From positions 2,170,001 through 2,234,000 of the forward strand of contig NC_083531.1 of NCBI RefSeq assembly GCF_032362555.1: a DNA stretch of 64,000 nucleotides, given 5' to 3'. Positions 3,401-24,241 of this stretch are shown here, piece by piece (position 1 is the first letter of the stretch; every line of letters begins with the position of its first letter). The notes under the pieces are model-generated. The model saw only the letters and a list, made by a program, of their open reading frames with translations, had not been told where the DNA came from and searched no databases. Made by a program: the position numbers and the translations under genes. Source of the stretch: Amyelois transitella (lineage: Eukaryota > Arthropoda > Insecta > Lepidoptera > Pyralidae).

Positions 3401-6400
3401 TGTTGTTTGAATATTTATTAATTCTAGATTTTTAAATGAAAGATTAAAGAGTAAAGGTTTATAGTTGCACTATTAGCATTGTCTAATTATTTAGTTAATA
3501 ATAATGATCACAGGCCTATTAATTATTTTAAAGGGATCAGAGACAGAGCATATCTAAATTTTATAAAGATGTATACAGTTTTTAACATTATTTTTCTTTT
3601 CTTTGTCCTATATATTATTTTTTTTGAACTATTCATCAGTCCTTCTATATTTAATGTGTTTAAAAAATATCTATTGTTATATCATCTATCCTAAAAGCAT
3701 TATTTAGTATATCTTGTGCCAAAAGTATTATAACCATCATTTGTCACGGGCATCAAACTCACGGTATACGGCCCCTATCCCCCCCTAGCTGCGAGTCGCT
3801 CAGGCCGGTGTGGCGCAGGGGCTGGTGCTGCAGTACTCGGGGCTGCCGCTCGGGGCTCCGCTGGGGGCTCCGCTGGCGCAGGCCTTCTACTACGGCGCGG
3901 CCGCCGCCACCGCCGCGCCCTACGGCATCGGCCTCGACCAGGCCACGCTGAAGGACTTGATCAAGAAGCAGATGTGAGTGATCGTACTGTGTTGTGATGT
4001 CCTGGTACTTTAGCTCGGGCTCCGTTAGTTTATCGTTTTGATCAAGAAGCAGATGTGTGTTCTTCTGTTTTTATGATATCCGGGTATTTTTGCTAGTTAA
4101 GAAGTTTTTTGGAGTACAATTACTCTGTGTCAATAGTGAGATTAGTTTTATCCGATCAATTCAAAATATGTATATGTATGTAGTTATAATTTCAACTGGC
4201 AGACAAATTAAGGTACTTAGCAAACTCCACATTTATAAAGGAGACACGTCTTCACCGCTGTCCTTGTATAAATAATGGTAAATAACAAAATTTTTTGGCA
4301 CCTCATTATTCACGAAAGCAATGCCTTACAATTCTTCCTCCTATTCTGGCAAACCTCAAAATTGGAGTGATACAGCCTTTTAATCCTCCTCCATAAGCCA
4401 AAGACTCACCCAATCCAGGATCCATGGTCAAGGCCTTACCCCGGGCTCCTCTCCAGAGCGGTGAGGATGCGACCGGGACTAAATCCAGGAGGAAGAACTT
4501 TCCCCCATAAGCCTCCTGTCCCCGTGGCATTGCCGTTTTAATCGCGCGAAAAAGCTATCGCTGTTTCGCTTTTTATTATGACGTAAAACGGGACAGCGAT
4601 AGTTTTTCGCGCGATAATAACGGCGCCGCGCGTCTGGTCAGTGAATTAATTGTATGTTTACAGTAATTAATAAATATAAAAATATACGGGACAAATTACA
4701 CTGACTGAGTTAACCTCGAAGTAAGTTCGAGACTGGCCTTACTAACTCAACGATACTAAATTTTATCATAAATACTTATATAGATAAACATCCATGACCC
4801 AGGCCAATCGGAGAAAGATCGTGTCTCATCATGCCCTGGCCGGGATTCGAACCGGGACCCCCCGATGATGAATGATTATACAAATATATAATTTATATCC
4901 CACAGTGAGTATTACTTCAGCGCGGACAACCTCGCCCGCGATTTCTTCCTCCGCCGCAAGATGGCCGCCGACGGAACCATTCCGGTCACCCTCATAGCGT
5001 CCTTCCATAGGGTGCGGGCTCTGACGCAAGACGTGCAATTGGTGCTCAGCGCGATACGAGATTCGGATAAACTTCAGTTGATTGATGGGTTCAAGGTATG
5101 TGAAAATTGTTAGTTATATTTATTTCTACCGACAAATGGAGCATTCTAACGTGATAAGAAATTTAGAGAGTCTAAATCTCTTATCACCAGAGATCGGATA
5201 TTCGGATGCATATTTACCTAAAGTTGGGGTGTTGGGTTAGTATGGAACGTACTTCTGTAGGCATTGATGCCGAATCCCGGAATTTTTGAGGTACCTTAAT
5301 GTGACCCTATGGTGAAAGTTGTTCAGTTTGATGGTCTGAATAACCTCAGAAAGTTTTTGTACTGACTAAAAAATCACGCGGTATAATTCTGGAATCCCGG
5401 TAGGTAAGTAATTTTTTAATAAATATGATCATCCATCACTTATGTTTATAAAGGTGTTTATCATACCTAATATACGATAAGTTTCAATTTCTTGTTTAAT
5501 AAAATTTCCGTGATTCAAAATAATTCGAATATTAATTCGGCCGCCATATTCCCCCTCCCGAAAAGAATCTAATTTTATATATAAACATATGTATGGGATT
5601 AAGTTAAGGACCTTTCAAAATGTGACGTCATAACTACACACTACACACAGAACACTAAAAATTTGGTTTTTCAAATATTCATTGTACGCCAACAGGTGCG
5701 GACAGCGTTCGAGCCGACAAAATGGCCGATCCTCGACATAACGAACAACACGGAGGGCCATGAAGAGAGGAAGCAACAACAATTGTTACAACAACAGCAT
5801 TATTATCAGCAACAACATCAACAACAACAACAACTGGAGGAGAAGGCGAAACCTGCCGAGGAAAAGCCTAAGGTATATATATAAAGTTTATTTTATTTAC
5901 ATAGAATAGATTTATTTTTAATATTGGATACAAGGTATCACTTATTGACGTCACATCACTTAAGTCTAATTATAACTACTACCGCTTCCAAAGCGCATGT
6001 GTAGAAGAAGCGGCGAAACATACTACACTGCAGCATTTTCACCGGACGTCAATTTACAGATATAGATCTCTTAAATCTAAATCGTGGACGAATGCACATT
6101 GTCTACATTAAAAAACATGAATGAATGTAAAATTAATTATTTCAATACTAGTATTCCGCCAAACACACTAGAGATTTCTTTCTTGCGGGTTAGACAGAGC
6201 TAACAGTCTCGCAGATTACATGGTCACGTTCAGCTGTATGGCTTAATGATGGAATTGAGATTCAAATAGTGACAGGTTGCTTGCTAGCCGATGGCCTAAA
6301 ACAAAAATATCATGTTTTCCCTTAGTCGCTTTTTATGACATCCATGGGAAAGAGAGATAATGGTTCTGTTCTAAAGTGCCGGTAATCACCACACTTCAGA

Positions 6401-9400
6401 ACTGGATCACTCCCTTGGCTTTTTGGCCTTGAGCGTGAAAGTAACTTATCAAACTTTAATTTTTTTTTCCTAGGCACCAGAAGAAAAGCCTAAAGAGCCG
6501 GAACCACAACCACAGAACCCACAACCGGAGAACCCGCCAGAGACGCGAGTCGAAGCGAAGCAGGACGAAGCGCCCAGTATAGAAGCGAAGCAGGAGAGCA
6601 AGGTGGTTGAGGAAGTCTCTGTTAATGCGAACGAAGTGAGTAGCTTTTATTTCGTTTTAATTTTATACCAAACAACACTAGATATGCTAGCCGAGACGCG
6701 AGTCGATGCGAAGCATGTGCTTCGCTTGATCCTAGTTGAGGTTGAGGAAGTCTATTTAGTTTTATCTTGACCACCACATATCATCAGAAAAAAGAATAAA
6801 AGCCTATTACTCTACTCGAGGTGAGTGTCGAAGCGAAGCAAGACGAAGCCTCAGTATAAAGAAGCCGTTGCTGATGCTGGCGATATTAATAGTTAAAATC
6901 TTATAGCGATGGTATGATTACACTAATAATTTTATTGCAAGAGGCTGTACTTCTGTGTGAATGATCCTAACTAATATCGGATTCCGCCATTTTGTTTTAG
7001 ACATCACAAGAAGAGAACTCAATGAAATACATTGCTCACTTATATTATTTATATTTATTTTACTACTAGCGACCTGCGTCGGCTGCGCACGGGTAGAATT
7101 TATACATGTAACCCTTTCTCATGTTTCTATTAAAAAAACTTTATCATCAAAATCCGTTGTGTTAAGCTTACATACATACAGACATCTGAACATACACGGT
7201 AATCGACTCTGCTTTATACTTACAATGTAGCGATATTATCCATATAATATACTACCATAGTATCGTATGTATAAAATTTCAATTTGTTTTTAACGATGAT
7301 TATTTTACATCTGTAGCAGAAACCCTCACCAGCCGAAGATAACGCTCCGCCGGCTGAAGAGAGCGAGCAGACAGACAAACATGAGGCAGAGGCGAAGAAG
7401 GATTCCAACGAAGATCCACCTCTGCAGCATGAGGCGGAAGAGAAGCCGGGGGAGAAAAGGTATTATCATTTATATATTTATGGGTCAGGTCAAAAGTACC
7501 TGAAACCGCCGAGCTTGCATGAAGAGAGTTATGAATGTGGAAGAAGCGAAGGAAGTATGCAGAGATCGTGGCAAGTGAAAAGAGGTAATCTCTGCCTACA
7601 ACTCCGGGAAAGAGGCGTGATTTTATCAATGTATGTATTTATATATATTTATTATTTCATACATACTTAAAATCACGCCTATTTCCCGGAGGGGTAGGCA
7701 GAGACTACCTCTTTCTACTTGCCACGATCTCTGCATACTTCCTTCGCTTCATCCACATTCATAACTCTCTTCATACAAGCTCGGCGGTTTCGGGTACTTT
7801 TGACCTGACCCTTTACCAGGACGTCCTTAATTTGATCAAGATACGTTCGTCTAGGTCTTCCCACTCCGACCTTTCCCTCCACACTCTCCTTGAACACATA
7901 CAGCTGTGTATAACAATAATTTTAACTAATATAATAAATGCGAAAGTAAGTTTATTAGTTTGTTTGTTACCTCTTCACGGGTTAATATACTGAACTGATT
8001 TCAGTGTTTTTTTTTCTTAAACTCGGAACGTTTGTTCGCAGACGTAAAAAGCAAATGGTGGGTATATTCCCGCTCGCGACGATGGGCGGGCCGCTAGTCG
8101 CTCCCGTCTCCCATTTACTGAGGGCCGTGCCGCCTCCTCCGTTACCCAGGTATGGTTATTTTTTTTTTAATAAATCTAATGAATTTATGTGCTTTGTGGT
8201 GTACGGCGCCAAGGATTTTTTTTCTTTTTTTTTAATATATGTATTGAATGTTTGTGCCACGTGGTTTCAGGCAGCTATTTAAATAAGGGTGTGACCACTC
8301 TGTCTCTTTCTCTCATGGATATAGTAAAGGCTGAGGGATAGGCTTATAAACTTGGGATTATTATATTACCTACTAGATGCCGCCCGCGACTTCGTCCGCG
8401 TAGAATCATTCCGGCGGGGAAAAGTAGTCTATATGTTATTCTGGGTCTCACCTACATCAAATTTCATCATAATCGGTTCAACAGTTTTTCCGTGAAAGAG
8501 TAACAAACACTTATACTGTCATACTCACAAACTTTTGCATTTATAATATTAGTAGGATAGTCGATGGGCTAACAACCTGTCGCTATTTGAATATCAAGCA
8601 TATCAGCTGAACGTGGCCTATCAGTCTTTCAAGATTGCTGGCCCTGTCTATCCCGCAAGGGATATAGACGTGATTATATGAAGAAATGTATGTTCAACTG
8701 TCTGTAGAATTATTCTAAGTTGCGTACACACTGTTGGCATAGAGGTGGTTTGTGTATTTGAACTTAATCGCAATTGGCTTGGTGTGTACGCGGCTTTAGG
8801 AAATTGCAATTCCCAAAAACTATTGTTTTACTGGTGATAATAATATAAGTAAGAAGTAAGCAACAAAATTATGATATCATTATAATTTGTTTTGAAAATT
8901 GTAATAATTTCAAGTGTAAGTAGGGACATTTTGCGACTAATTCCAAAAGAATTAAATAATGTTTGCAATCATTCACTGACCGTGTTTTGGTCGGAGTGGG
9001 AAGACCTAGACGAACATATCTTGATCAAATTAAGGACGTCCTGGTAAAGGGTCAGGTCAAAAGTACCCGAAACCGCCGAGCTTGCATGAAGAGAGTTATG
9101 AATGTGGATGAAGCAAAGGAAGTATGCAGGGATCGTGGCAAGTGGAAAGAGGTAGTCTCTGCCTACCCCTCCGGGAAAGAGGCGTGATTTTATGTATGTA
9201 TGTATGCAATCATTTACTTAATTACGATTTTATTTATTCTGAGAAAATTTCATTAAAAACTTAACTTTTCATTACTTACTTAATGTGTACGTGTGTTTGT
9301 CAGGATGTTCCGCACGAACCGAGCGGGCGTGCCGCCCCCCGACCCGCTGAACCCAGACGTGCCCGAGTTCGTGCCGCGCCGCGCTGACCACGCTGACCAC

Positions 9401-12400: not shown

Positions 12401-15400
12401 GTCGAATCGATAAAGTGCTTGGTCAAAACTCGGTTGCGTATAAAGGCACCGGTTCGAATCCCACCGCGGCCATGCACCAATGACTATTTTTGAAGTGATG
12501 TACATTAGTTTGATAACTAACCGATGCTCTTACGGTGAGGGAAAACATCGTAAGGAAACCTGCGCATTCAGGCAACTGGATGTGTAACCATATGATCCAA
12601 TACGGGTTAGGTTCCCCTGCAAAGGTTGCGGAGGACAGATGGGGGGAGTCGCTTCGTGTAAAAACCTGACTCACACAAACCAAGATCCATGGTCAAAGGC
12701 ATACCCTGGGCTCCTTCTCCAGAGCGGTGAGGATGCAACCGGGACTAAACCCAGGACAATTTAATAATAGAATTGAGATTCTAACAGCGACAGGTTGCTA
12801 GCACAACACGCCTATATCCCTTGCGGGGTAGACAGAGCCAACAGTCTTAAAAAGACTGATAGGCCACGTTCAGCTGTTTGGCTGAATGATAGAATTGAGA
12901 TTCAAATAGTGACAGGTTGTGCTAGCTTGTCGCCTAAAATAATAATAATCCCAAGTTTATAAGCCCATCCCATTAGTCGGTGTTTTCCGACATCCATGAG
13001 AATGGGACGGAGTGGTCTGGTGCTGGGAACCACACGGCACAAGTAGTACCTAAATGTGTTACTGTTTATAACAGTCGTACGGCAGCCAGAACCAATACCG
13101 CACCGTGTCGCTGATATCGCGCGAGCAGTTCGAGGCGACGGTGCCCAGCGAGCGCCACGCGAACCCCGCCGAGCCGCCGCCGCCGCCGCCGCGCCCCAAG
13201 CGGGTGAGCGCACGCGCACACACACACGCATACATATACACACGCACACACACACACACACACGCACACACACACACACACACGCACACACACACACACA
13301 CACACAATATAAGTTTAAGTTTATTGCTCACCATAATCAATTACAGTTAAGTTAAATAGAACAATATAAAAAACTTAATTCTAAGACAATTGGTACATTA
13401 ACAATTTTTATTCTTATTTAGGTGTTAGGCTCTTAAAACAGTACCTACCATCTATAAAATTATGGCGGATTGACACCTGAACTAGGACTAGTCCTGTATC
13501 TCAGGTTATCAACCCTCCACCCCATTATATATATATTTATTTACGCCAATAATACAATGGTTGTAGTACACCTCTTGATGTATTTGGCAAGGAATTACAC
13601 ACATACATTGTACTGTATTGTACTACAAAAAGCGACGAATTAAACGCCATGTACTCCATTCTTATACTACATTGTATAAGAATTGAGTACATTGAAAAAA
13701 ATAAGCTGTCAAACAACTTTGACTGACTGATTGATTGATTCCAGGCGGAGCCGGAGCACGGCGGGGGGAGGGCCGCGCGCCGCCGCACCGCTCGCTTCTA
13801 CGCGGCCAACAAGGACCCACACGCCACTGACGTTATGTGAGTCTTACATACATACATATAGTCACGTCTATATCCCTAGCGGGGTAGACAGAGCCAACAG
13901 TCTTGAAAAGACTGATAGGCCACGTTCAACTATTTGGCTTTAAGACAGAATTGAGATTCAAATAGTGACAGGTTGCTAGCCCATCGCCTAAAAAGGAATT
14001 CCAAGTATGTAAGCCTATACCTTAGTCGCCTTTTACGACACCCATGGGAAAGAAATGGAGTGGTCCCATTCTTTTTTGTATATTTGTCTGTACCACACAG
14101 CACTCCACAGAGGCCGAAATATAAATGTTTCCACATCCATGGGAAAGAAATGGAGTGGTCCCATTCTTTTTTGTATATTTGTCTGTACCACACAGAGGCC
14201 GAAATATAAATGTTTCCTTTTTTTTTCGCAGCACGAGCAGGAAGAACAAGACGCGCCACAGCCTGAACCCGCCGGTGGAGCACCACGTGGGCTGGATCAT
14301 GGACATCCGCGAGCACCGCCCGCGCACTCACAGCACCGGGTGAGTCGTACAACGCGAGGCGTATAAGTTGACCCAAAATGGTCCGGCCATTTATTATTTA
14401 CTAGCTGTGCTCGCGACTTCGTCCGCGTGTAATAGTAATTTTGGGCATCATTGAATAATTTTCCCCGATTTTTTTCACATTCCCCATTATTTCTTCGCTC
14501 CTCATAGTTGCAGCGTGATGTTCTATAGCCTAAAGCCTTCCTCGATAAATGGTCTATTCAAAACAAAAAGATTTTTTAAATCCAACAAAAAATTTAATTC
14601 CAAAATTGAGATTAGCGCGTTCAAACAAATTAACAATCAAACAAACAAACTCTACAGCTTTATAATATTAGTATAGATATACCTATAATACTAGATTTTA
14701 CCAGCAGTTTTGCCCGCGTGAATATAGCGCCATCTATGAGAAGCAACGAAAAAAACGCACGAATAGCGACGAATTTAGCGCCACCTACGAAATTTTATGC
14801 AATATAGCCGGACAGGTTCTTTAGTCGCCGGCAGACGTTTGAGAAATTTATTCGTGACATTCGCGTCGAGACGTGAATGTCACGAATGTCAATAAAAAAT
14901 CTTTAAATGCTGATTAAAATTCTTGTTTGACTAACTAAATTATATTATCTTTAATTTACTTTCCCACTATGTATGGACAATTCTCAATAGCGCCATCTAT
15001 CCGACAAAGTTTGAATTTCTTAGTAATTTAACTTCTTTCTTACACAGATACTTTCTACAGGCAAATGAAGAATAAGTTGAACTTATTTCCCTTATCTGTT
15101 TACCAGGTCATCGATAGGCACATCGCCCACGCTGGGTTCGTCGTGCGGCTCCGTGCCCCAGTCGCTGCCCACGTTCCACCACCCCAGCCATGGGCTACTC
15201 CGGGAGAACCACTTCACACAACAGGCGTACCACAAATATCACTCTAGATGCCTCAAAGGTGAGATCGTAGCGTTTTCTATCAATTGTTTTACCGACTACG
15301 GCGATGCAAAATGGAGGGTTATGATTTTGGACTGTATGTATAGATAGTAAAGATGTTCATCTGTTCCCTCATAACTTATAAACGGCTTATTATAATTTGA

Positions 15401-18400
15401 TAAAATTGTTGTCTTTAGAAGCCTCTTGATCGTCTGTCAAGCGCTTGGCAACAATTATTAGTGTATCCTCTTAGTCGCCTTTTACGACATCCATGGGAGA
15501 TAAGTAGAGTGGTCCTATTCTAAAGAGAAACACAGCACTTTATAGTAATACTAGCTTTCACCCGCAGCTTCGCTCGCGTGAATTTAGCGCCACCTACAAA
15601 AAGCAACGAATTAAATTCCGCCAACACAAAGCGACGAATTTAGCGCCACTTTAAAAATGAATACAGGTTTTTCGCAAATCCCACGGGAACTATAGTTATA
15701 CCGGGATGCAAGGCACCCTATCTCGTTCTGCAGACTCGTAAATTATATTTACATGATATTTCAAGAAGATTAATTCAGAAGATAACCCGATAAAGAGGTG
15801 ACAAATAAATGAACTAAGTTTCGAGCGTTTATAATATTAATCGGGATGTATGTATGTTTGTCTTGTTCCACAGAACGCAAGAAGCTCGGCATCGGGCAAT
15901 CGCAAGAAATGAACACCCTGTTCAGGTTCTGGTCGTTCTTCCTCAGGGACCACTTCAACCGCACCATGTATAATGAGTTCAGGTTAGTTTCGTAAATTTA
16001 TTTATTTTATTATTTCTAGTAAAAATACATACGTCACGTCTATGTGCCTTGCGAGGTTGACGGACTTAACAGACTTGAAAAGACTGAAAGGCTACGTTCA
16101 GTTGTATGGCTTTATGATAATTTTGAGATTCAAATAGTGACAGGTACATTTAGTGATAGCCCATCGCCTGTCCTTTAGTCTTTTATGAGAGATGGTGTGG
16201 TACTTTTCTTTTTTCTATTGGTGCCGGGAACCACACGGCACTAATTATATACGTATACAATACAATAACTCTTTATATCAACACAATAAATAACAGCAAA
16301 TTCACAATAATATGTATGTATGAATGAATAAAATAAACAATGTTCTCATATTTATCACAGAACGCTAGCGAACGAAGACGCAGCAGCCGGTTTCCGATAC
16401 GGCTTAGAGTGCCTGTTCAGATTCTACTCGTACGGGCTCGAGAGGAAGTTCAGACCAGAGCTATATCAGCACTTCCAGCAGGAGACTATCGCTGACTTCG
16501 AGAATGGTAAGGTTTACAAAGAAAACTTTATTTTCAAAATAAGTACCACTGGGCCCAAATGATACCCTTGTGGGACTCCCGGTTTTCTCTTAATAATATG
16601 GCGGTCCAGCTCTTTAGATTACTGGAAGAAGTTCAGAAGAGAGTTGTACCAGCACTACTAACATGAGACAAGCGCTGATTTCGAGAATGATAGGATTTAT
16701 GGAGAAAAATATGCTTTTTTGTTCTTGAAATCTTTAATGTAAAAACTATTTGACCCAAACGACGCCCTTGTGGAACTCCCGATCGTTTTTTGCTCCTATG
16801 GAAGTTCAGATATTGTTATTTTATTTTTTTATCACACAACAGAATACAACGTAGTCAACATGTATTTTAAAAAAAGAACTTTTTAATAAAGTCCAAAGTA
16901 TTTTCCTTTTGAGAAAATAATATTAATTCCTTAGCGAATTCGTTAAATACCTGAGCTAATTTTACTCCCACTATTAAGTGGCATTGAATAAGGCATTCTA
17001 TTAAGAATGCCTTATTCAATGATAAAAAGTGAATATCTTGTTGCAATTTATTACATTAACATAGGAATAATTTTCAGCATGGTCCATAAGCCTTAACAAT
17101 TGAATCTATAGTTTGAATGTATACATACATACATATAATATACATACAACCACGTAATTTTCCCAGACGGATAGGCAGAGACTATAGCTTTCAGCTAGAA
17201 AAAATGTATGTTTTAATTAACATCCCGCATTTTAGGCCCCTCGTTTCCCCCTGGACACGAGTGGTTACGCACCGCGGGGAAATCAAACCTCCAGAGATCA
17301 TTACACGGAGTGGTCATCCGCTTTCGTGATGTGTCAGGAGTTACATTATCTTTAACTATATAAAAAAAAAAACTATAAATAATACACGTATTAAACGCGC
17401 ACGCAACTTACCTTTACATACATACATATAGTCACATTATGTCCCTTGGGCGGTAGACACTATTTGAAGTTCTTTTTTTTTCTTTTTTTACATCTATTTG
17501 AGCGTCTATTACCAGCCATTACTTTTATTAAACCAATGAGGTTGCATTACTCTTTCTAAATTGTGATCCCTGAATTGAACAGCCTTTGATGGATATAAAG
17601 AGAATTAGTTCTATATCTCTTTATCGCTGGCTGGGTAGACAGAGCCTTGAAAAGACTGAATGACAACGCTCAGCTGTTTGGCTTAATGATAGAATTGAGA
17701 TTCAAATAGTGACAGGTTGCTAGCCTGTCGCCTAAAAGAAGAATCCCAAGTTTATAAGCCAATCCCTTAGGCGCCTTTTACGACATCCATGGGAAAGATA
17801 TGGAGTGGTTATATTCTTTTTTTATTGGTGCCGGGAACCACACGTGTTTATATGAATGAGATTTTAATTCTCTCAAATGTGATGATACCCAGGTCAGCTC
17901 TACGGTCTGGAGAAGTTCTGGGCTTTCCTGAAGTACTACAAGAACGCAGCCGCCCTGAAGGTGGACCCCAAGCTCCAGGAGTACTTGGCCAACTTCAAGA
18001 GCATTGAGGACTTCAGGGTCCTGGAGGTGAGGAGATGGGAATGTTTTGAAAATTTTTTTATAAATGATTTTTGATATTTATTATAAAAGTAGTTGATGTC
18101 GGTTAGTGTTTGTGAATATAAAAAAATCTATTAGTATTTGCGAATACAAAACAGAAAACATTGATTCATTACGTCTTTTTCTCGATTTTGATTTTATACG
18201 AAAACTAAATGTAAATTTTTCCAAAATTTTGAAATAGAAATATGTTTTTTTTTCTAAAGGCTATACAAGTTATCGTTTAATAAAGTTAACATAACTGTCT
18301 ACCCGGATATAGACGTGATCAAACGTACGTAAACATTAAGAATTGAATGAGAAGTTAAGATATGTCCCCCCGCCCGCAGCCGCAGCTGAACGAGCTGCTG

Positions 18401-18510
18401 GCGAGCCAGGGCGCGGCGGCCCCGGGGCGCGGCCCGCACGCGCGCGCCTACGACCGCCACCGCTCGCTGTCCGAGAGCGAGCGCGCGCACGCACGCTTCA
18501 CGCTCAGGTA

Positions 18511-18560
<50 letters not shown>

Positions 18561-18635
18561 GCACGCGCGCGCCTACGACCGCCACCGCTCGCTGTCCGAG
18601 AGCGAGCGCGCGCACGCACGCTTCACGCTCAGGTA

Positions 18636-18675
<40 letters not shown>

Positions 18676-18750
18676 GCACGCGCGCGCCTACGACCGCCAC
18701 CGCTCGCTGTCCGAGAGCGAGCGCGCGCACGCACGCTTCACGCTCAGGTA

Positions 18751-18792
<42 letters not shown>

Positions 18793-18867
18793 GCACGCGC
18801 GCGCCTACGACCGCCACCGCTCGCTGTCCGAGAGCGAGCGCGCGCACGCACGCTTCACGCTCAGGTA

Positions 18868-18909
<42 letters not shown>

Positions 18910-18984
18910 GCACGCGCGCGCCTACGACCGCCACCGCTCGCTGTCCGAGAGCGAGCGCGCGCACGCACGCTTCACGCTCAGGTA

Positions 18985-19024
<40 letters not shown>

Positions 19025-19099
19025 GCACGCGCGCGCCTACGACCGCCACCGCTCGCTGTCCGAGAGCGAGCGCGCGCACGCACGCTTCACGCTCAGGTA

Positions 19100-19141
<42 letters not shown>

Positions 19142-19216
19142 GCACGCGCGCGCCTACGACCGCCACCGCTCGCTGTCCGAGAGCGAGCGCGCGCACGCAC
19201 GCTTCACGCTCAGGTA

Positions 19217-19266
<50 letters not shown>

Positions 19267-19341
19267 GCACGCGCGCGCCTACGACCGCCACCGCTCGCTG
19301 TCCGAGAGCGAGCGCGCGCACGCACGCTTCACGCTCAGGTA

Positions 19342-19391
<50 letters not shown>

Positions 19392-19466
19392 GCACGCGCG
19401 CGCCTACGACCGCCACCGCTCGCTGTCCGAGAGCGAGCGCGCGCACGCACGCTTCACGCTCAGGTA

Positions 19467-19518
<52 letters not shown>

Positions 19519-19593
19519 GCACGCGCGCGCCTACGACCGCCACCGCTCGCTGTCCGAGAGCGAGCGCGCGCACGCACGCTTCACGCTCAGGTA

Positions 19594-19635
<42 letters not shown>

Positions 19636-19710
19636 GCACGCGCGCGCCTACGACCGCCACCGCTCGCTGTCCGAGAGCGAGCGCGCGCACGCACGCTTCA
19701 CGCTCAGGTA

Positions 19711-19768
<58 letters not shown>

Positions 19769-19843
19769 GCACGCGCGCGCCTACGACCGCCACCGCTCGC
19801 TGTCCGAGAGCGAGCGCGCGCACGCACGCTTCACGCTCAGGTA

Positions 19844-19887
<44 letters not shown>

Positions 19888-19962
19888 GCACGCGCGCGCC
19901 TACGACCGCCACCGCTCGCTGTCCGAGAGCGAGCGCGCGCACGCACGCTTCACGCTCAGGTA

Positions 19963-20012
<50 letters not shown>

Positions 20013-20087
20013 GCACGCGCGCGCCTACGACCGCCACCGCTCGCTGTCCGAGAGCGAGCGCGCGCACGCACGCTTCACGCTCAGGTA

Positions 20088-20133
<46 letters not shown>

Positions 20134-20208
20134 GCACGCGCGCGCCTACGACCGCCACCGCTCGCTGTCCGAGAGCGAGCGCGCGCACGCACGCTTCACG
20201 CTCAGGTA

Positions 20209-20262
<54 letters not shown>

Positions 20263-20337
20263 GCACGCGCGCGCCTACGACCGCCACCGCTCGCTGTCCG
20301 AGAGCGAGCGCGCGCACGCACGCTTCACGCTCAGGTA

Positions 20338-20379
<42 letters not shown>

Positions 20380-20454
20380 GCACGCGCGCGCCTACGACCG
20401 CCACCGCTCGCTGTCCGAGAGCGAGCGCGCGCACGCACGCTTCACGCTCAGGTA

Positions 20455-20506
<52 letters not shown>

Positions 20507-20581
20507 GCACGCGCGCGCCTACGACCGCCACCGCTCGCTGTCCGAGAGCGAGCGCGCGCACGCACGCTTCACGCTCAGGTA

Positions 20582-20633
<52 letters not shown>

Positions 20634-20708
20634 GCACGCGCGCGCCTACGACCGCCACCGCTCGCTGTCCGAGAGCGAGCGCGCGCACGCACGCTTCACG
20701 CTCAGGTA

Positions 20709-20754
<46 letters not shown>

Positions 20755-20829
20755 GCACGCGCGCGCCTACGACCGCCACCGCTCGCTGTCCGAGAGCGAG
20801 CGCGCGCACGCACGCTTCACGCTCAGGTA

Positions 20830-20871
<42 letters not shown>

Positions 20872-20946
20872 GCACGCGCGCGCCTACGACCGCCACCGCT
20901 CGCTGTCCGAGAGCGAGCGCGCGCACGCACGCTTCACGCTCAGGTA

Positions 20947-21002
<56 letters not shown>

Positions 21003-21077
21003 GCACGCGCGCGCCTACGACCGCCACCGCTCGCTGTCCGAGAGCGAGCGCGCGCACGCACGCTTCACGCTCAGGTA

Positions 21078-21135
<58 letters not shown>

Positions 21136-21210
21136 GCACGCGCGCGCCTACGACCGCCACCGCTCGCTGTCCGAGAGCGAGCGCGCGCACGCACGCTTCA
21201 CGCTCAGGTA

Positions 21211-21272
<62 letters not shown>

Positions 21273-21347
21273 GCACGCGCGCGCCTACGACCGCCACCGC
21301 TCGCTGTCCGAGAGCGAGCGCGCGCACGCACGCTTCACGCTCAGGTA

Positions 21348-21405
<58 letters not shown>

Positions 21406-21480
21406 GCACGCGCGCGCCTACGACCGCCACCGCTCGCTGTCCGAGAGCGAGCGCGCGCACGCACGCTTCACGCTCAGGTA

Positions 21481-21530
<50 letters not shown>

Positions 21531-21605
21531 GCACGCGCGCGCCTACGACCGCCACCGCTCGCTGTCCGAGAGCGAGCGCGCGCACGCACGCTTCACGCTC
21601 AGGTA

Positions 21606-21667
<62 letters not shown>

Positions 21668-21742
21668 GCACGCGCGCGCCTACGACCGCCACCGCTCGCT
21701 GTCCGAGAGCGAGCGCGCGCACGCACGCTTCACGCTCAGGTA

Positions 21743-21792
<50 letters not shown>

Positions 21793-21867
21793 GCACGCGC
21801 GCGCCTACGACCGCCACCGCTCGCTGTCCGAGAGCGAGCGCGCGCACGCACGCTTCACGCTCAGGTA

Positions 21868-21905
<38 letters not shown>

Positions 21906-21980
21906 GCACGCGCGCGCCTACGACCGCCACCGCTCGCTGTCCGAGAGCGAGCGCGCGCACGCACGCTTCACGCTCAGGTA

Positions 21981-22026
<46 letters not shown>

Positions 22027-22101
22027 GCACGCGCGCGCCTACGACCGCCACCGCTCGCTGTCCGAGAGCGAGCGCGCGCACGCACGCTTCACGCTCAGGT
22101 A

Positions 22102-22154
<53 letters not shown>

Positions 22155-24241
22155 GACTCTTTTTTATTATAAAACTAGCTGTCCCGGCAAATGTTCTTTT
22201 GACATATAAATAATTATTAAGTAATTTCTACATTAAAAAAATTTTAAGGGTGGACAACCCTTATCAGTAAGGAGTATGAAAAATGATGTTGGCCGATTGT
22301 CAGACCTACTCAATGTGCTCACAAAATTTCATGAGAATCGGTCAAGCCGTTTCGGAGGACTACGGGAACGATCATTGTGACACGAGAATTTTATATATAA
22401 GACGAGAATTTTATCTATATGATATAGTTTTTTTTTTTAAGTATAAAATATAGTATCGTCGAGTTGGTATCTCGTTACATAAGTTTCGAACTCACTACGA
22501 GGCTAACTCTACATAATAATGTACCTATATGTATTAACGTTAATTTCCTTCCACAAGGAGCGGCGGCAACACTAGCGCGCAACCAGCCGGCGCTAAGGAG
22601 CAGCGCGGGCGCGCCGGCTCGTGCGGCGCACAGAGCGTGGTCGCCACCGCGCGCCCCGCACGTGAGTACACTGCGCTCTGTTTTTTATTTTATTTTTTAT
22701 TTTATATATTTGGATGACCAACAGCAAGTTTTACAATCATTAGATTTTCAATTATACATTTAAGTGCCAATTACAGGTCTTCACTAATAAAAACAGTTTA
22801 AAAAATAAGATTTTCGAGAACGCCAATTAAACACACACTAGTTAATTATAACATTGAAGCAGATGCTTAAGTGCATACATACTGTGAATAATTAGTCTTA
22901 AAGAAGATAAATGTAAATACTTAATCACAAAAGAAGTTTTCATACAACAAATGCTTAGCCCTTGCTGGAGAGGTGTTAAAAATATCAATGTCTATGGTTT
23001 TTGCAACAGTGTTGAAAGCCTTGCCTACGCGCCATAAAAATGAATTCTGCCTATAATTTGTCGATACTACTGGAAGACTGATAGGGGAATAATGTTGTTA
23101 CCATAGATCGGAATACGTAGATTGATTTTATGTACTTGCATCATGAATTACCATAGAAAGCATAATATGGATAAGCCTCTTTTTCGGGATTCCATTTCAG
23201 TACTTACAGTTAACTACATTGTCCGCGGGTAACATAGGACTACAATGTACGTGAACGAAGTCGGGGGAAAACAGCTACCACTAATATATTCTTAATTCCA
23301 CTTGTAAAAATTCCGAAAAAAAATCTTAATAATTTACAAATCCCGGTCGGAGGCATGTCCATATTAATATATACGTTTTAGTTCATTGGCCCCAAATAAA
23401 TCTACCTATTCCGATCTCTGGTTATTACGTTCGCTAATCGGTGTCGTATTAGGCGACTAATCTGTCGAATTACTTAATACTCATTGAAAAATAGTTATAT
23501 GAACTCTTTGATGAACTGAAACTGCACTTTGATTTTAACTTAAAAACATGCACTTTAATAAAATAACAATAGGTACTTATGCTAAACATTAAATCGGTCT
23601 TAAGTTTCTTAATGGAATTCCAAGTTAACTCAAAAATTTTATTTTTATTTTTTTGTATGTGTCCAGTTGCAACCTGGTAAACGAAGTAAAGAGTTTGAAC
23701 CAATACTCATTTTGAAGTATACTAAACACTCTTAATATGTTTCATTACTTTTTAATAGAAAAAAGAGAATAGGACTACTACATTTCTTATTCATACTTAT
23801 ATTTATAATCACGTATATGTCCCATGCAGTGTAGACAGAGCCAAAATTGCCAAGCATTGAAAAGACTGATAAGCCACGTTCAGCTGTTTGGCTTAATGGT
23901 AGAATTGAGATTCAAATAGTGACAGGTCACTAGCCCATCGCCTAAATAAGAAACCTAAGTTAAGCCTTCTTATTCATGGATGCAATAAAAGGCAACTAAC
24001 TAAAACTAAAAAGGGATGGGCTTGTAAACTTGGGATTCTTCTTTTACGGACGGCAGAACGTGGCCTATCAGTCTTTCAAGTCTGTTGGCTCAGTACCATG
24101 CAAGGGATGTAGACGTCACTATATGAATGAATGAACGAATGAAATGTACGACTTATTAAATGTTGTTTTTTTTTCTCACTTGCAGCCAAGCCGAAAACGA
24201 AGCCGGACTGCGAACCTAAACCACTAGCGGCTAAACAGTGA
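483..24241 (+). CDS. LARP1: La-related protein 1 (LARP1), 22 coding exons, 5' end outside window
   Basis: Cytoplasmic RNA-binding protein; the family binds poly(A)/PABP and the cap of 5'TOP mRNAs. Exons I could join in phase: 483-596, 1352-1524, 3789-3973, 4906-5095, 5696-5872, 6474-6635, 7317-7459, 8042-8149, 9304-9457, 10393-10541, 11368-11518, 11997-12059, 13075-13203, 13745-13836, 14232-14339, 15107-15258, 15874-15982, 16361-16506, 17893-18026, 18380-18507, 22558-22661, 24186-24241. All introns are GT-AG and every junction keeps frame, giving 974 residues to TGA. In order: [10 protein letters not shown] near the start, an RG-rich stretch, La motif (about 148-220, EYYFSADNL), a Q-rich run, an acidic linker, PAM2-like [10 protein letters not shown] (about 431-440), then DM15 repeats (about 720-880). 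The N-terminus is missing only because the window starts inside the gene. Exon 18380-18507 has a tandemly amplified 3' end, described separately. The family call is very secure. Confidence 0.96.
622..1051 (+). mobile_element. Older family-A copy split by a nested family-A copy
   Basis: The two halves (622-700, 975-1051) rejoin into a continuous A element once 701-961 and one copy of the duplicated site are removed. Confidence 0.85.
701..961 (+). mobile_element. Nested family-A SINE with 13-bp target-site duplication
   Basis: Flanked by ATCTCATAATGCC at 688-700 and 962-974. The 261-bp insert defines both ends of the family: GTGTGGTCCTCGGCACC at the 5' end and CGTGACCATATGTATGTATG at the 3' end. 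Confidence 0.9.
1052..1240 (-). mobile_element. tRNA-derived SINE (family G), diverged
   Basis: CTGGAGAGGAGCTTGG and ATATGAAGCGACTCCG match the body of the copy at 12380-12760 in reverse. The tRNA-like head is missing. Confidence 0.62.
1525..3788 (+). other. LARP1 intron without recognised genes
   Basis: Apart from the family-H pair at its start and a cluster of ATTGG/CCAAT motifs at 2639-2772, I see only AT-rich sequence. Confidence 0.6.
1530..1838 (+). repeat. Tandem pair of a dispersed repeat (family H)
   Basis: Two diverged copies, each with GAATGGAATA..., TGACGTCACAT/TGATGTCACGT, and AACTACACTGCAGCA. Together they make up the first 0.3 kb of the LARP1 intron after exon 1352-1524. Further copies lie at 5885-6060 and 36340-36445. 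Confidence 0.7.
3957..4110 (+). repeat. Tandem copy of LARP1 exon 3' end (after La-motif exon 1)
   Basis: The 20-nt string TTGATCAAGAAGCAGATGTG, which spans the exon end and its donor GT at 3974, recurs exactly at 4038-4057, 81 bp downstream. The following intron sequence is alignable but diverged. The second copy keeps GT but reads GTGTGT instead of GTGAGT. Confidence 0.75.
4395..4495 (+). mobile_element. Family-G SINE body fragment
   Basis: GGATCCATGGTCAAGGCC, CCAGAGCGGTGAGGATGCGA and CGGGACTAAATCCAGGA match the 3' part of family G. Confidence 0.7.
4541..4615. repeat. Short palindromic (MITE-like) element
   Basis: Arms ATCGCGCGAAAAAGCTATCG... and ...CGATAGTTTTTCGCGCGAT pair over 23 of 24 positions around a 28-nt centre. 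A related piece is at 53759-53815. Confidence 0.65.
4660..4866 (-). mobile_element. tRNA-derived SINE (family F)
   Basis: Minus strand has B-box-like GGTTCGAATCCCGGCC followed by the family body GGCCTGGGTCATGGATG and an AT-rich end. The A-box half of the head is missing. Confidence 0.78.
5885..6060 (+). repeat. Family-H dispersed repeat
   Basis: TATTGACGTCACATCAC, AGAAGAAGCGGCGAAAC, CTACACTGCAGCATTTTCAC and CGGACGTCAAT. Class unknown. Confidence 0.68.
6178..6396 (-). mobile_element. Family-A SINE, diverged
   Basis: TTGCGGGTTAGACAGAGC through GTGCCGGTAATCACCACAC, with several substitutions. It lies 80 bp before LARP1 exon 6474. Confidence 0.75.
6690..6870 (+). repeat. Degenerate intronic copies of LARP1 exon 6474-6635
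   Basis: Just downstream of the exon the intron has GAGACGCGAGTCGATGCGAAG (from about 6693), GTTGAGGAAGTCTATTTAG, then GTGTCGAAGCGAAGCAAGAC (from about 6826). These match successive parts of the exon (ETRVEAKQD ... VVEEVS). The copies are broken by substitutions and stops and are not usable exons. I read them as two decayed tandem duplicates. Confidence 0.75.
7484..7645 (+). mobile_element. Family-B LINE 3' tail, 5'-truncated
   Basis: Encodes the LINE C-terminal peptide [17 protein letters not shown] (here mutated) and ends CGTGATTTTATCAATGTATG. It faces the next copy tail-to-tail. Confidence 0.8.
7660..7902 (-). mobile_element. Family-B LINE 3' tail
   Basis: One of the longest copies here. 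The reverse strand reads [19 protein letters not shown] and onward to RDRGK, starting in SVEGK. It is inverted relative to the neighbour 20 bp away. Confidence 0.82.
7921..7999 (+). mobile_element. Helitron 5' end fragment
   Basis: ACTAATATAATAAATGCGAAAG followed by TTTGTTTGTTACCTCTTCAC. It ends 43 bp before LARP1 exon 8042. Confidence 0.6.
8286..8680 (+). mobile_element. Family-A SINE interrupted by a Helitron
   Basis: 8286-8372 and 8558-8680 are the two parts of one copy, ending GACGTGATTATATGAAG. The interruption is the Helitron at 8373-8557. Confidence 0.8.
8373..8557 (-). mobile_element. Helitron inserted in a family-A SINE
   Basis: Reversed it begins TCCTACTAATATTATAAATG and ends GACGAAGTCGCGGGCGGCATCTAG (seen as two pieces). 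Confidence 0.82.
8989..9207 (+). mobile_element. Family-B LINE 3' tail with intact terminal frame
   Basis: [20 protein letters not shown] through [14 protein letters not shown] and stop are uninterrupted, followed by TGATTTTATGTATGTATGTATG. This is the best template for the B family. It ends about 100 bp upstream of the PAM2-like exon. Confidence 0.85.
9304..9457 (+). other. LARP1: LARP1 exon with PAM2-like PABP-binding motif
   Basis: The exon reads [17 protein letters not shown]. The LN-x(3)-P-EF-x-P core fits the PAM2 consensus that docks on the MLLE domain of poly(A)-binding protein, with V-P where Ala is usual. This identity comes from motif recognition, not binding data. An imperfect Asp-His repeat (DHADHAHSD) follows. 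Confidence 0.75.
9511..9680 (+). mobile_element. Family-A SINE, 5'-truncated
   Basis: GGCGATGGGCTAGCAACCTG to CGTGATTATATGAATGAATG; the tail repeat has become GAAT. Confidence 0.78.
9831..10015 (+). mobile_element. Family-A SINE, 5'-truncated
   Basis: From CTAACAAACTTAGGATTC to GACGTCACTATATGTATGTA. It forms an inverted pair with the copy at 10051-10314. Confidence 0.78.
10051..10314 (-). mobile_element. Family-A SINE, near full length
   Basis: ATACATACACATACACATAG tail then TCACGTCTATATCCC through GTGCCGGCAACCACACGGCAC. It ends 80 bp before LARP1 exon 10393. Confidence 0.83.
10572..10670 (+). mobile_element. Family-B LINE tail, decayed
   Basis: Only scattered matches (GGTTATGAACGTG, AACCGCTGAG) and the terminal GGGAAAGAGGCGTGATTTTA remain. 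Confidence 0.55.
10715..10915 (+). mobile_element. Family-A SINE
   Basis: AAAAGGCGACTATGGGATAGG to GACGTGATTCTATGTATG. Confidence 0.78.
11027..11210 (+). mobile_element. Nonautonomous Helitron, family C
   Basis: Begins A|TCACTACATAATATAAAAC and ends CACCCGTGCGAAGCCGGGGC then GGGTCGCTAG|T: 5' TC, a 3' hairpin and CTAG between host A and T. Confidence 0.85.
11554..11650 (+). mobile_element. Family-F SINE fragment
   Basis: TAGCCTCTGTGTGTGGC, GGTTCGAATCCTGGTCG and CCCGGGTCTTGGGTGTTTAT survive. Confidence 0.65.
11758..11888 (-). mobile_element. Family-A SINE fragment
   Basis: ATAGTCAGATCTATATCCC to GACGGGTCGCTAGCCCAT; only the 3' half is left. Confidence 0.72.
12108..12360 (+). mobile_element. 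Nonautonomous element with terminal hairpin (family E)
   Basis: Starts near ATACATTTAAACGAGCAATTC and ends with the palindrome GACCGAGCAAAGCTCGGTC and GGGTACT. Class uncertain, possibly Helentron-like. Confidence 0.7.
12380..12762 (+). mobile_element. tRNA-derived SINE (family G), most complete copy
   Basis: The head has an internal pol III B box GGTTCGAATCC (12451-12461) after CGGTGGTCGAATCGATAAAG. The body then contains CGATGCTCTTACGGTGAGGG and ends GGACTAAACCCAGGA. It lies in a LARP1 intron. Confidence 0.82.
12766..13040 (-). mobile_element. Family-A SINE with an extra partial copy
   Basis: A partial copy (AATAGAATTGAGATTC) is followed by a full one ending GGGAACCACACGGCAC, 34 bp before LARP1 exon 13075. 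Confidence 0.78.
13212..13306 (+). repeat. (CA)n microsatellite at a LARP1 donor
   Basis: Alternating CA with CG interruptions begins within a few bases of the donor GTGAGC at 13204. This is the same exon-donor-CA arrangement as the amplified unit at 18433, but single copy. Confidence 0.9.
13847..14214 (-). mobile_element. Family-A SINE with internal tandem duplication
   Basis: After a complete copy the 5' end (CCATGGGAAAGAAATGGAG ... TGTACCACACAG) is repeated from about 14138. It lies between LARP1 exons 13836 and 14232 and fills most of that short intron. Confidence 0.82.
14401..14677 (-). mobile_element. Nonautonomous Helitron, family D
   Basis: Plus strand CTAGCTGTGCTCGCGACTTC ... TTTATAATATTAGTATAGA. 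Reversed this is TCTATACTAATATTATAAA ... CTAG with a CGCG-stem hairpin before the end. Confidence 0.85.
14690..14850 (-). mobile_element. Helitron-like fragment
   Basis: CTAGATTTTACCAGCAGTTT and the GCGCCACCTACGAAATT part resemble the element at 15551; the other end is not visible. Confidence 0.5.
15467..15540 (-). mobile_element. Family-A SINE 5' fragment
   Basis: CTTAGTCGCCTTTTACGACA followed by a changed GAAACACAGCAC end. Confidence 0.7.
15551..15846 (-). mobile_element. Helitron of a further family
   Basis: CTAGCTTTCACCCGCAGCTTC ... ATAATATTAATCGGGA, between host A and T. Reversed 5' end TCCCGATTAATATTATAAAC. It ends 28 bp before LARP1 exon 15874. Confidence 0.8.
16026..16241 (-). mobile_element. 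Family-A SINE
   Basis: ACGTCACGTCTATGTGCC through GTGCCGGGAACCACACGGCA, with internal deletions. Confidence 0.78.
16616..16815 (+). repeat. Degenerate tandem copy of LARP1 DM15 exon 3' end and donor
   Basis: Sequence from about 16440 (exon end plus following intron) is repeated from about 16620: AAGTTCAGA..., CAGCACT..., GCTGATTTCGAGAATGATAGG, later CCTTGTGGAACTCCCGATC against CCTTGTGGGACTCCCGGTT. The unit is about 190 bp and a third start (GGAAGTTCAGAT) is visible near 16800. In the copy the donor GGTAAGG has become GATAGG, and the frame stops after the tyrosines of YQHY. Confidence 0.8.
16982..17021. repeat. Perfect 18-bp inverted repeat, 4-nt loop
   Basis: CATTGAATAAGGCATTCT, ATTA, AGAATGCCTTATTCAATG: no mismatch. 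In a LARP1 intron. Confidence 0.9.
17413..17844 (-). mobile_element. Two family-A SINEs (fragment and near-complete copy)
   Basis: 17413-17466 holds only the 3' end. 17608-17844 is nearly complete, ending GTGCCGGGAACCACACG, 48 bp before LARP1 exon 17893. Confidence 0.75.
18433..22151 (+). repeat. VNTR of an exon 3' end + 5' splice site + (CA)n, 30 copies
   Basis: Direct reading finds 30 copies of an almost invariant core of about 80 bp. It comprises the last 75 nt of the LARP1 exon (coding [16 protein letters not shown]...FTLR), the donor GTAACG, and a (CA)n tract that runs into CCGCACGCG of the next copy. Donors fall at 18508, 18633, 18748, 18865, 18982, 19097 and so on to 21978 and 22099. 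Spacings are 113-137 bp and all odd, so units differ by whole CA steps. No AG acceptor precedes the inner copies, so only copy 1 lies in the normal exon. The next real exon begins at 22558. Confidence 0.97.
22175..22400 (-). mobile_element. Dispersed repeat with CTAGCTGTCCCGGCAAA end
   Basis: It starts right after the CA array and ends CACGAGAATTTTATATATAAG. The CTAG end suggests a Helitron, but no clear TC end is visible. Confidence 0.55.
23806..24137. mobile_element. Inverted pair of family-A SINEs
   Basis: 23806-23958 is minus and about 23970-24137 is plus, head to head. Together they could fold in the LARP1 pre-mRNA just before its last coding exon. Confidence 0.72.

Follow-up and report, generated by a model that had tools for sequence, protein, structure and literature searches.

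The window analysed here, a stretch of 64,000 nucleotides from Amyelois transitella (C27:2170001-2234000 of one assembly with 327,366,114 bases in 33 contigs), carries on its plus strand a LARP1 gene. A model of 20 exons (3804-24241; 2,625 nt in frame to a TGA) was built from reading frames and splice signals, with GT-AG introns and with the N-terminal exons left out. The preliminary description of the window had named the gene LARP1, and this is borne out by Pfam matches to the La domain and LARP1_HEAT, by PDB matches to LARP1 entries, and by the LARP1 of the pyralid moth Plodia interpunctella, which gave the top full-length score among the fetched relatives (81% identity over 877 columns). 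Another relative, Papilio machaon LARP1 (P0001), owes its high score to a doubled part of the DM15 region in the gene model, the tail being single; the doubling may be genuine or may come from an error in the gene model or the assembly. The features of the locus, and those of related arrays sampled elsewhere in the assembly, are collected in Table 1.

Table 1. Features of LARP1 in the window and of donor-spanning arrays outside it (x, copy number; a slash marks the exon-intron boundary)
Feature	Position	Strand	Remarks
Exon 1 decayed donor-spanning duplication	3957..4094	+	copies 3957-4015 and 4038-4094; 48 identical, 8 mismatched, 4 gaps
Exon 4 end, decayed duplications in intron 4	6536..6940	+	near 6690-6758 (weak) and 6818-6940
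Intron 12 tandem duplication, 95 bp	14038-14217	+	14038-14132 repeated at 14133-14217; ends 14 nt before exon 13
Exon 16 decayed donor-spanning duplication	16442..16809	+	copies 16442-16609 and 16625-16809; 129 identical, 36 mismatched, 23 gaps
LARP1 exon 18	18380..18507	+	coding; C-terminal tail beyond DM15/HEAT region; 20-exon model
30-unit array	18433..22150	+	identical 81-bp core + (CA)16-28 + C
Core of unit 1	18433..18513	+	last 75 nt of exon 18 + donor GTAACG
Donor 1, CAG/GTAACG	18508..18513	+	in-frame TAA inside donor (AG/G TAA)
Intron 18	18508..22557	+	4,050 bp; array about 90% of length
Cores of units 2-30	18558..22104	+	intronic by position; 29 extra donors, GT at 18633 ... 22099
LARP1 exon 19	22558..22661	+	gene model
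LARP1 exon 20 with stop codon	24186..24241	+	gene model
POLR3A x25 array	C17 ~999,848-1,001,863 (L029:3848-4000 + L025:1-1873)	-	81-bp unit; donor GTAACTG
POLR3A 195 bp x2.0	L025:6194-6581		exon end ...KTAETGYLQRRLVK/GTAAAT
POLR3A 99 bp x2.9	L029:2305-2581 (in 4-kb extension)		exon end ...ESVLNLAS/GTCAGT
118 bp x6.0, NUP205-like gene	L011:5163-5858		starts 10 nt before likely donor ...ESCDLPTG/GTAAAT

Thirty exact copies of an 81-bp core lie head to tail on the plus strand (18433-22104), with no base difference across 30 x 81 bp (2,430 bp). Each unit joins 75 nt of the LARP1 exon 18 end and the donor GTAACG to a CA tract of 16 to 28 repeats (mean 21.5, variance 11.4, whole dinucleotides throughout), which between units closes with a single C before the next core; the final tract ends at 22150 and runs into CGTTGACTC. 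The core-to-core spacing, from the core count and Tandem Repeats Finder, is 113-137 bp with a unit of about 121 bp, so that the array is a minisatellite, and since a 5' splice site (CAG/GTAACG) stands at the exon end in all 30 units it is a splice-donor minisatellite. The composition of the unit, its thirty-fold repetition and the contrast between identical cores and CA tracts varying by dinucleotides had all been proposed in the preliminary description, and are confirmed. Searched with a 23-bp piece of the unit, the plus strand gives 30 exact matches and 100 shuffles give none; with 3 mismatches the same piece gives 60, near-palindromic minus-strand matches included. Whole-assembly searches with the core and with the LARP1 C-terminal part returned 30 and 35 matches respectively among the best candidates scored, all of them at this locus. 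A hairpin was considered as driver of the array and rejected: a 7-bp GC stem can form in each core, but the energies of folding are unexceptional (z of -0.82 and -0.58 for the unit's two DNA strands, -1.18 for its RNA and +1.07 for the RNA of the core). Other CA/TG tracts of at least 6 repeats are found in the window only at 13204-13306, within about 100 nt behind the LARP1 exon 11 donor, and none of at least 8 repeats occurs in the first 200 kb of the sampled stretches described below.

The preliminary description spoke of thirty copies of an exon end with its 5' splice site. The unit does hold an exon end, but copy 1 alone is exonic and copies 2-30 are intronic by position, so the array is not thirty exons. 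It is not a tandem exon duplication either, as the unit begins 53 nt inside exon 18 and its best AG scores only -1.56 as an acceptor, and it is not a coding VNTR, as the frame of the exon runs into a TAA at donor 1. The motif R[ST][VLI]SES, encoded by exon 18, occurs once in 113 and twice in none of 120 homologues (the best 120 of 1,463 protein matches), and LARP1 homologues thus appear to encode one copy of the coding part of the unit. The exon 18/19 boundary falls inside a variable linker between this motif and RGRAGSCG, which measures 23 residues in this LARP1 and 16 to 50 in 33 of the 38 best-scoring homologues, five lying outside the pattern.

On reading past exon 18, an in-frame TAA is met inside the donor (AG/G TAA). 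When exon 18 was cut at each of the 30 donors and joined to exons 19 and 20, its length ranged from 128 to 3,719 nt, and because the TAA lies inside every donor, only two proteins are predicted, with 95 residues (donor 1, full length) or 43 residues from exon 18 on; use of any donor from 2 to 30 would remove the same last 52 residues. Donor 1 is the fourth lowest of the 19 LARP1 donors in a leave-one-out position matrix, and by its pairing with U1 (-8.0 kcal/mol) it shares ranks 11-12 of 19. As acceptors, the four AGs of the unit score from -15.19 to -1.56, against -6.52 to 15.31 (leave-one-out) for the 19 real LARP1 acceptors, 18 of which lie above -1.56. By these scores the extra copies can probably be used as donors, but hardly as acceptors. 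The scores also bear on the idea that the copies serve as extra exons or as recursive splice points (CTCAG/GTAACG, with joined 3' and 5' sites) through which intron 18 would be removed stepwise. Such splicing would leave the mRNA unchanged, and every unit has AG/GT at its exon end; however, the acceptor score is weak, with 3 T in the 18 bases before the AG, and the sole yUnAy-like branch site of the unit (judged by eye) lies about 7 nt before the AG, and we consider the idea very improbable.

Several known systems resemble the array in part. Turri et al. are said to have described in 1995 a minisatellite with multiple 5' splice sites at an exon end of human IFI6 (6-16/G1P3). IFI6 units are 12 bp long and in frame, and extra units alter the protein slightly. 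According to the portion available of one account (PMC4526556), two downstream repeat units of IFI6 act as splice donors and three mRNAs are formed. LARP1 shares with IFI6 an exon-end minisatellite that supplies multiple 5' splice sites, but its unit is about 121 bp long, includes 75 nt of coding exon and a CA tract, and has a TAA within the donor, so that every extra donor gives the same stop, unlike in IFI6. Human IFI6 is therefore the nearest precedent, and the LARP1 array is a variant of the splice-donor minisatellite. Intron gain through tandem duplication of an exon stretch containing AG/GT has reportedly been described by Rogers and by Hellsten et al. in 2011. The LARP1 array likewise is a tandem duplication around AG/GT, with extra copies predicted to be spliced away, but LARP1 already had the following intron and needs no new acceptor: a GT-AG intron to exon 19 exists without any AG of the array. 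Intron 13 of eNOS contains a CA-repeat/hnRNP L splicing enhancer, and CA repeats in splicing were reportedly treated by Hui et al. in 2003. LARP1 has a variable intronic CA tract as eNOS does, action on splicing being the eNOS feature; in eNOS the CA tract alone varies, whereas LARP1 amplifies exon end, donor and CA tract together. Coding VNTRs, finally, have homogeneous GC-rich units that include coding sequence; the LARP1 units are homogeneous and GC-rich and hold coding sequence too, but only one copy is coding. No LARP1 repeat was found among the matches listed in a narrow look at the open-access literature, which is weak evidence of absence, and a narrow combined query of open-access papers on exon-boundary VNTRs found none.

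The age of the array was estimated with the mutation rate of Heliconius, given in the portion of the source available as 2.9e-9 per site per generation (95% interval 1.3e-9 to 5.5e-9; PMC4271535). At this rate and under a star model, zero changes in 2,430 bp are compatible with at most about 4.3e5 generations, or with limits of 2.2e5 to 9.5e5 generations across the rate interval. To account for the CA variance within that time, a rate of about 2.7e-5 steps per generation or more is required of each tract, or of 7e-6 under a coalescent; the accessible part of a nematode study gives tract rates of 8.9e-5 to 7.5e-4, for mutated markers of several repeat types (PMC3429916). The preliminary description had offered recent expansion or active homogenisation of the cores. 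Recent expansion agrees with the rate estimate and the CA variance, and since recent growth is sufficient, special homogenisation is not required and was dropped. Along the array, tracts of like CA length cluster weakly (uncorrected scan p of 0.030, 0.013, 0.0026 and 0.056, with windows of 4, 5, 6 and 8 units), and their lengths show a trend (rho 0.40, p 0.03), with p of 0.056 for lag-1 autocorrelation, 0.054 in a Mantel test and 0.14 for adjacent differences; no repeated triplet, as a higher-order pattern, occurs within the 30 units. The weak clustering fits growth by local duplication, without being proof of it.

An assembly or library artefact, in which the animal has one unit and the assembly has multiplied it, had also been raised at the outset. 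The absence of any difference among the cores would be expected of it, and an array in POLR3A (see below) is likewise difference-free over 24 exact units. However, the assembly consists of 327 Mb in 33 multi-megabase contigs and returned one locus, LARP1 reads in frame, the CA lengths vary and weakly cluster, and LARP1 contains old, diverged duplications of like shape that an assembler would hardly make. We accordingly judge an artefact unlikely.

The diverged duplications came from a junction scan in which the 19 donors and 19 acceptors of LARP1 were each compared with the adjoining intron against 200 shuffles, the array excluded. At donors 1, 4, 6, 11 and 16 and at acceptor 13 the observed score was reached by no shuffle; of these, donors 6 (a T run) and 11 (a CA tract) are simple sequence and were not counted. 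At four further junctions (donors 5 and 19, acceptors 9 and 18) the score was marginal, with 1-4 of 200 shuffles reaching it. The exon-end duplications at exons 1, 16 and 4 score 52, 73 and 38, against shuffle maxima of 23, 31 and 27. The exon 4 copies are copies of the exon end, and crossing of the donor is a candidate there: one alignment runs across it with a score of 65 (shuffle maximum 39) but contains 33 gaps, and another, at 48 against 45, is hardly above the shuffles. The second copy of the exon 16 end, first seen as a weak intron 16 match in a protein search of the assembly, lacks the GT and has a stop in the exon's frame. It would behave as unconstrained intron, and its divergence, divided by twice 2.9e-9 (the Heliconius rate as given in the portion seen of its source), places its age by rough inference at tens of millions of generations. 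Acceptor 13 (score 52) is the only one of the 19 acceptors beyond all shuffles, and the repeat there stops short of the exon. Self-alignment of LARP1 at distances of 25-1000, again without the array, gave 14 pairs: those at donor 1 and donor 16, two at the exon 4 end, the acceptor-13 repeat, and nine that do not overlap an exon, among them several that look, by eye, like dispersed repeat copies.

These decayed copies are relevant to a further explanation, by which the repeated donors, together with the CA tracts as putative hnRNP L-type binding sites, either compete with donor 1 or assist it and in this way control the amount of full-length LARP1. The 30 donors are equal, the low matrix rank of donor 1 suits such a role, and CA repeats are able to act in splicing, as Hui et al. 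reportedly found. Competing 5' splice sites can yield frame-shifted transcripts, as the part available of a DOK7 study reports (PMC5585400). The decayed exon 16 copy, on the other hand, is without sign of constraint, and a regulatory role of this kind seems rather doubtful.

Arrays were also surveyed in a sample of 308 kb, made up of 24 stretches of 10 kb (contigs C1-C24, each from base 1,000,001), a 4-kb extension that adjoins one stretch and was chosen because of the array found there, and the window. Tandem Repeats Finder, at periods of at least 30, gave 21 rows, or 17 distinct arrays after overlaps were merged by hand, and five of the 17 lie across a 5' splice site as judged by eye from frame and donor. 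The largest besides that of LARP1, POLR3A x25, has 24 exact units and a final partial copy without differences (23 of 23 units in L025), and its donor contains a TAA in frame (AG/G TAA) as in LARP1. A POLR3A composite with one 81-bp unit matches the human RPC1 of RNA polymerase III (7a6h) at E 2.6e-83 with no gap at the array junction. The composite stops at LAS and omits LQRRLVK, so the exon ends of the two smaller POLR3A repeats are presumed from the donor and from the sequence of the family. TAGTTAAA is seen near the junctions of both smaller repeats and is absent after the last L029 copy, as if it were filler. In the NUP205-like gene, the array exon together with the downstream exon matches NUP205 in the PDB from residue 47 on only, and the array exon alone, a short query, gave two chance matches only; this array is likely donor-spanning, with a putative assignment of its exon.

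No array crossing an acceptor was seen among the 17 in 308 kb; two come to within 41 and 33 nt of a likely acceptor (L011:7007-7199 and window 54657-55121). The second of these is one of two minisatellites that flank a zinc-finger-like exon (55155-55342, by eye): 59 bp x8, ending 33 nt before the acceptor, and 52 bp x7 behind the exon (55482-55853), pieces of the 52-bp unit being found also at 11026 and 38788 of the window. With an assumed 0.2-0.5 donors per kb, five donor-spanning arrays of 17 have a P of 4e-5 to 3e-3. One of the five was given beforehand, three are in a single gene, POLR3A, and one of these three is in the extension; P becomes 5e-4 to 0.013 without the LARP1 array (4/16), 0.005 to 0.057 without the extension as well (3/15), and 0.04 to 0.2 with POLR3A counted once (2/14), at the same assumed densities. 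On these figures, the sample gives no more than a suggestive excess of donor-spanning arrays. Across the assembly, pairs of AGGTAAGT with a gap of 72-102 bases gave 44 matches and the reversed word 35. Single arrays or a dispersed family raise both counts, and the difference may simply reflect a higher frequency of the donor word. The LARP1 array had been treated as a lone curiosity; similar donor-spanning repeats in LARP1 itself, in POLR3A and likely in the NUP205-like gene speak against this.

The LARP1 array is best explained as a genuine, recent and largely silent tandem amplification of the exon 18 end, its 5' splice site and a CA tract, to which we give a probability of roughly 0.7. What can be read directly from the DNA points to this reading: where the array lies and that its cores are identical, that only two proteins are possible, that the unit scores poorly as an acceptor, and that the gene and the genome contain other donor-spanning duplications. 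A first duplication would have brought exon position 18433 directly behind the end of the CA tract, with about 1 bp of sequence shared at the junction (by eye), and whole units would then have multiplied by unequal exchange or replication slippage. The spliceosome would take donor 1, which is made first and lies 128 nt from its acceptor, so that mRNA and protein would stay normal and copies 2-30 would leave with the intron. Because donor 1 keeps the mRNA normal, the extra copies would be nearly invisible to selection. Exon length (128 nt versus 253 and more) and the order of synthesis favour donor 1. Against this can be set the competing donors of DOK7, where the intron-proximal one is preferred but is also the stronger site, in the portion available of the source (PMC5585400). 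A preference of this kind would favour donor 30 instead of donor 1, and splicing from donors 2-30 would then yield a truncated protein or an mRNA subject to decay. Even under silent amplification, occasional use of donors 2-30 would lead to one truncated protein or to a transcript open to nonsense-mediated decay, and a longer or shorter array could have a slight tuning effect on LARP1.

Tandem duplication across 5' splice sites is, in our best reading, recurrent, with LARP1 exon 18 as a recent and expanded case. The shared shape would be a duplication from inside an exon into the following intron, in which the first copy keeps exon and donor; nearly invisible to selection, such duplications may arise repeatedly, at several exons, some of them expanding and the others decaying. 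A duplication crossing an acceptor would have no such shelter, because the first acceptor met brings foreign sequence into the mRNA. The model thus predicts that growth is tolerated at donors, that extra copies decay and that acceptor duplications are purged, and the small survey agrees. The wider proposal, drawn from one fully scanned gene (LARP1) and a small sample, is that in this moth lineage donor-crossing duplication is recurrent and long-lived and enlarges introns, the first donor hiding copies that either expand (LARP1 x30, POLR3A x25) or decay (LARP1 exons 1, 4 and 16) while acceptor-crossing ones are purged; we hold it tentatively, at slightly less than even odds.

Thirty identical donors before one acceptor constitute a natural experiment on donor choice, in which position is the main difference. 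The asymmetry of duplications between donors and acceptors is a testable consequence of such hiding, if it is true, and long exon-end arrays could in that case mislead gene annotation. Should selection in general fail to see donor-spanning duplications, these would provide a simple route to intron growth and to new alternative 5' splice sites, and introns would carry a fossil record of the end of the upstream exon.
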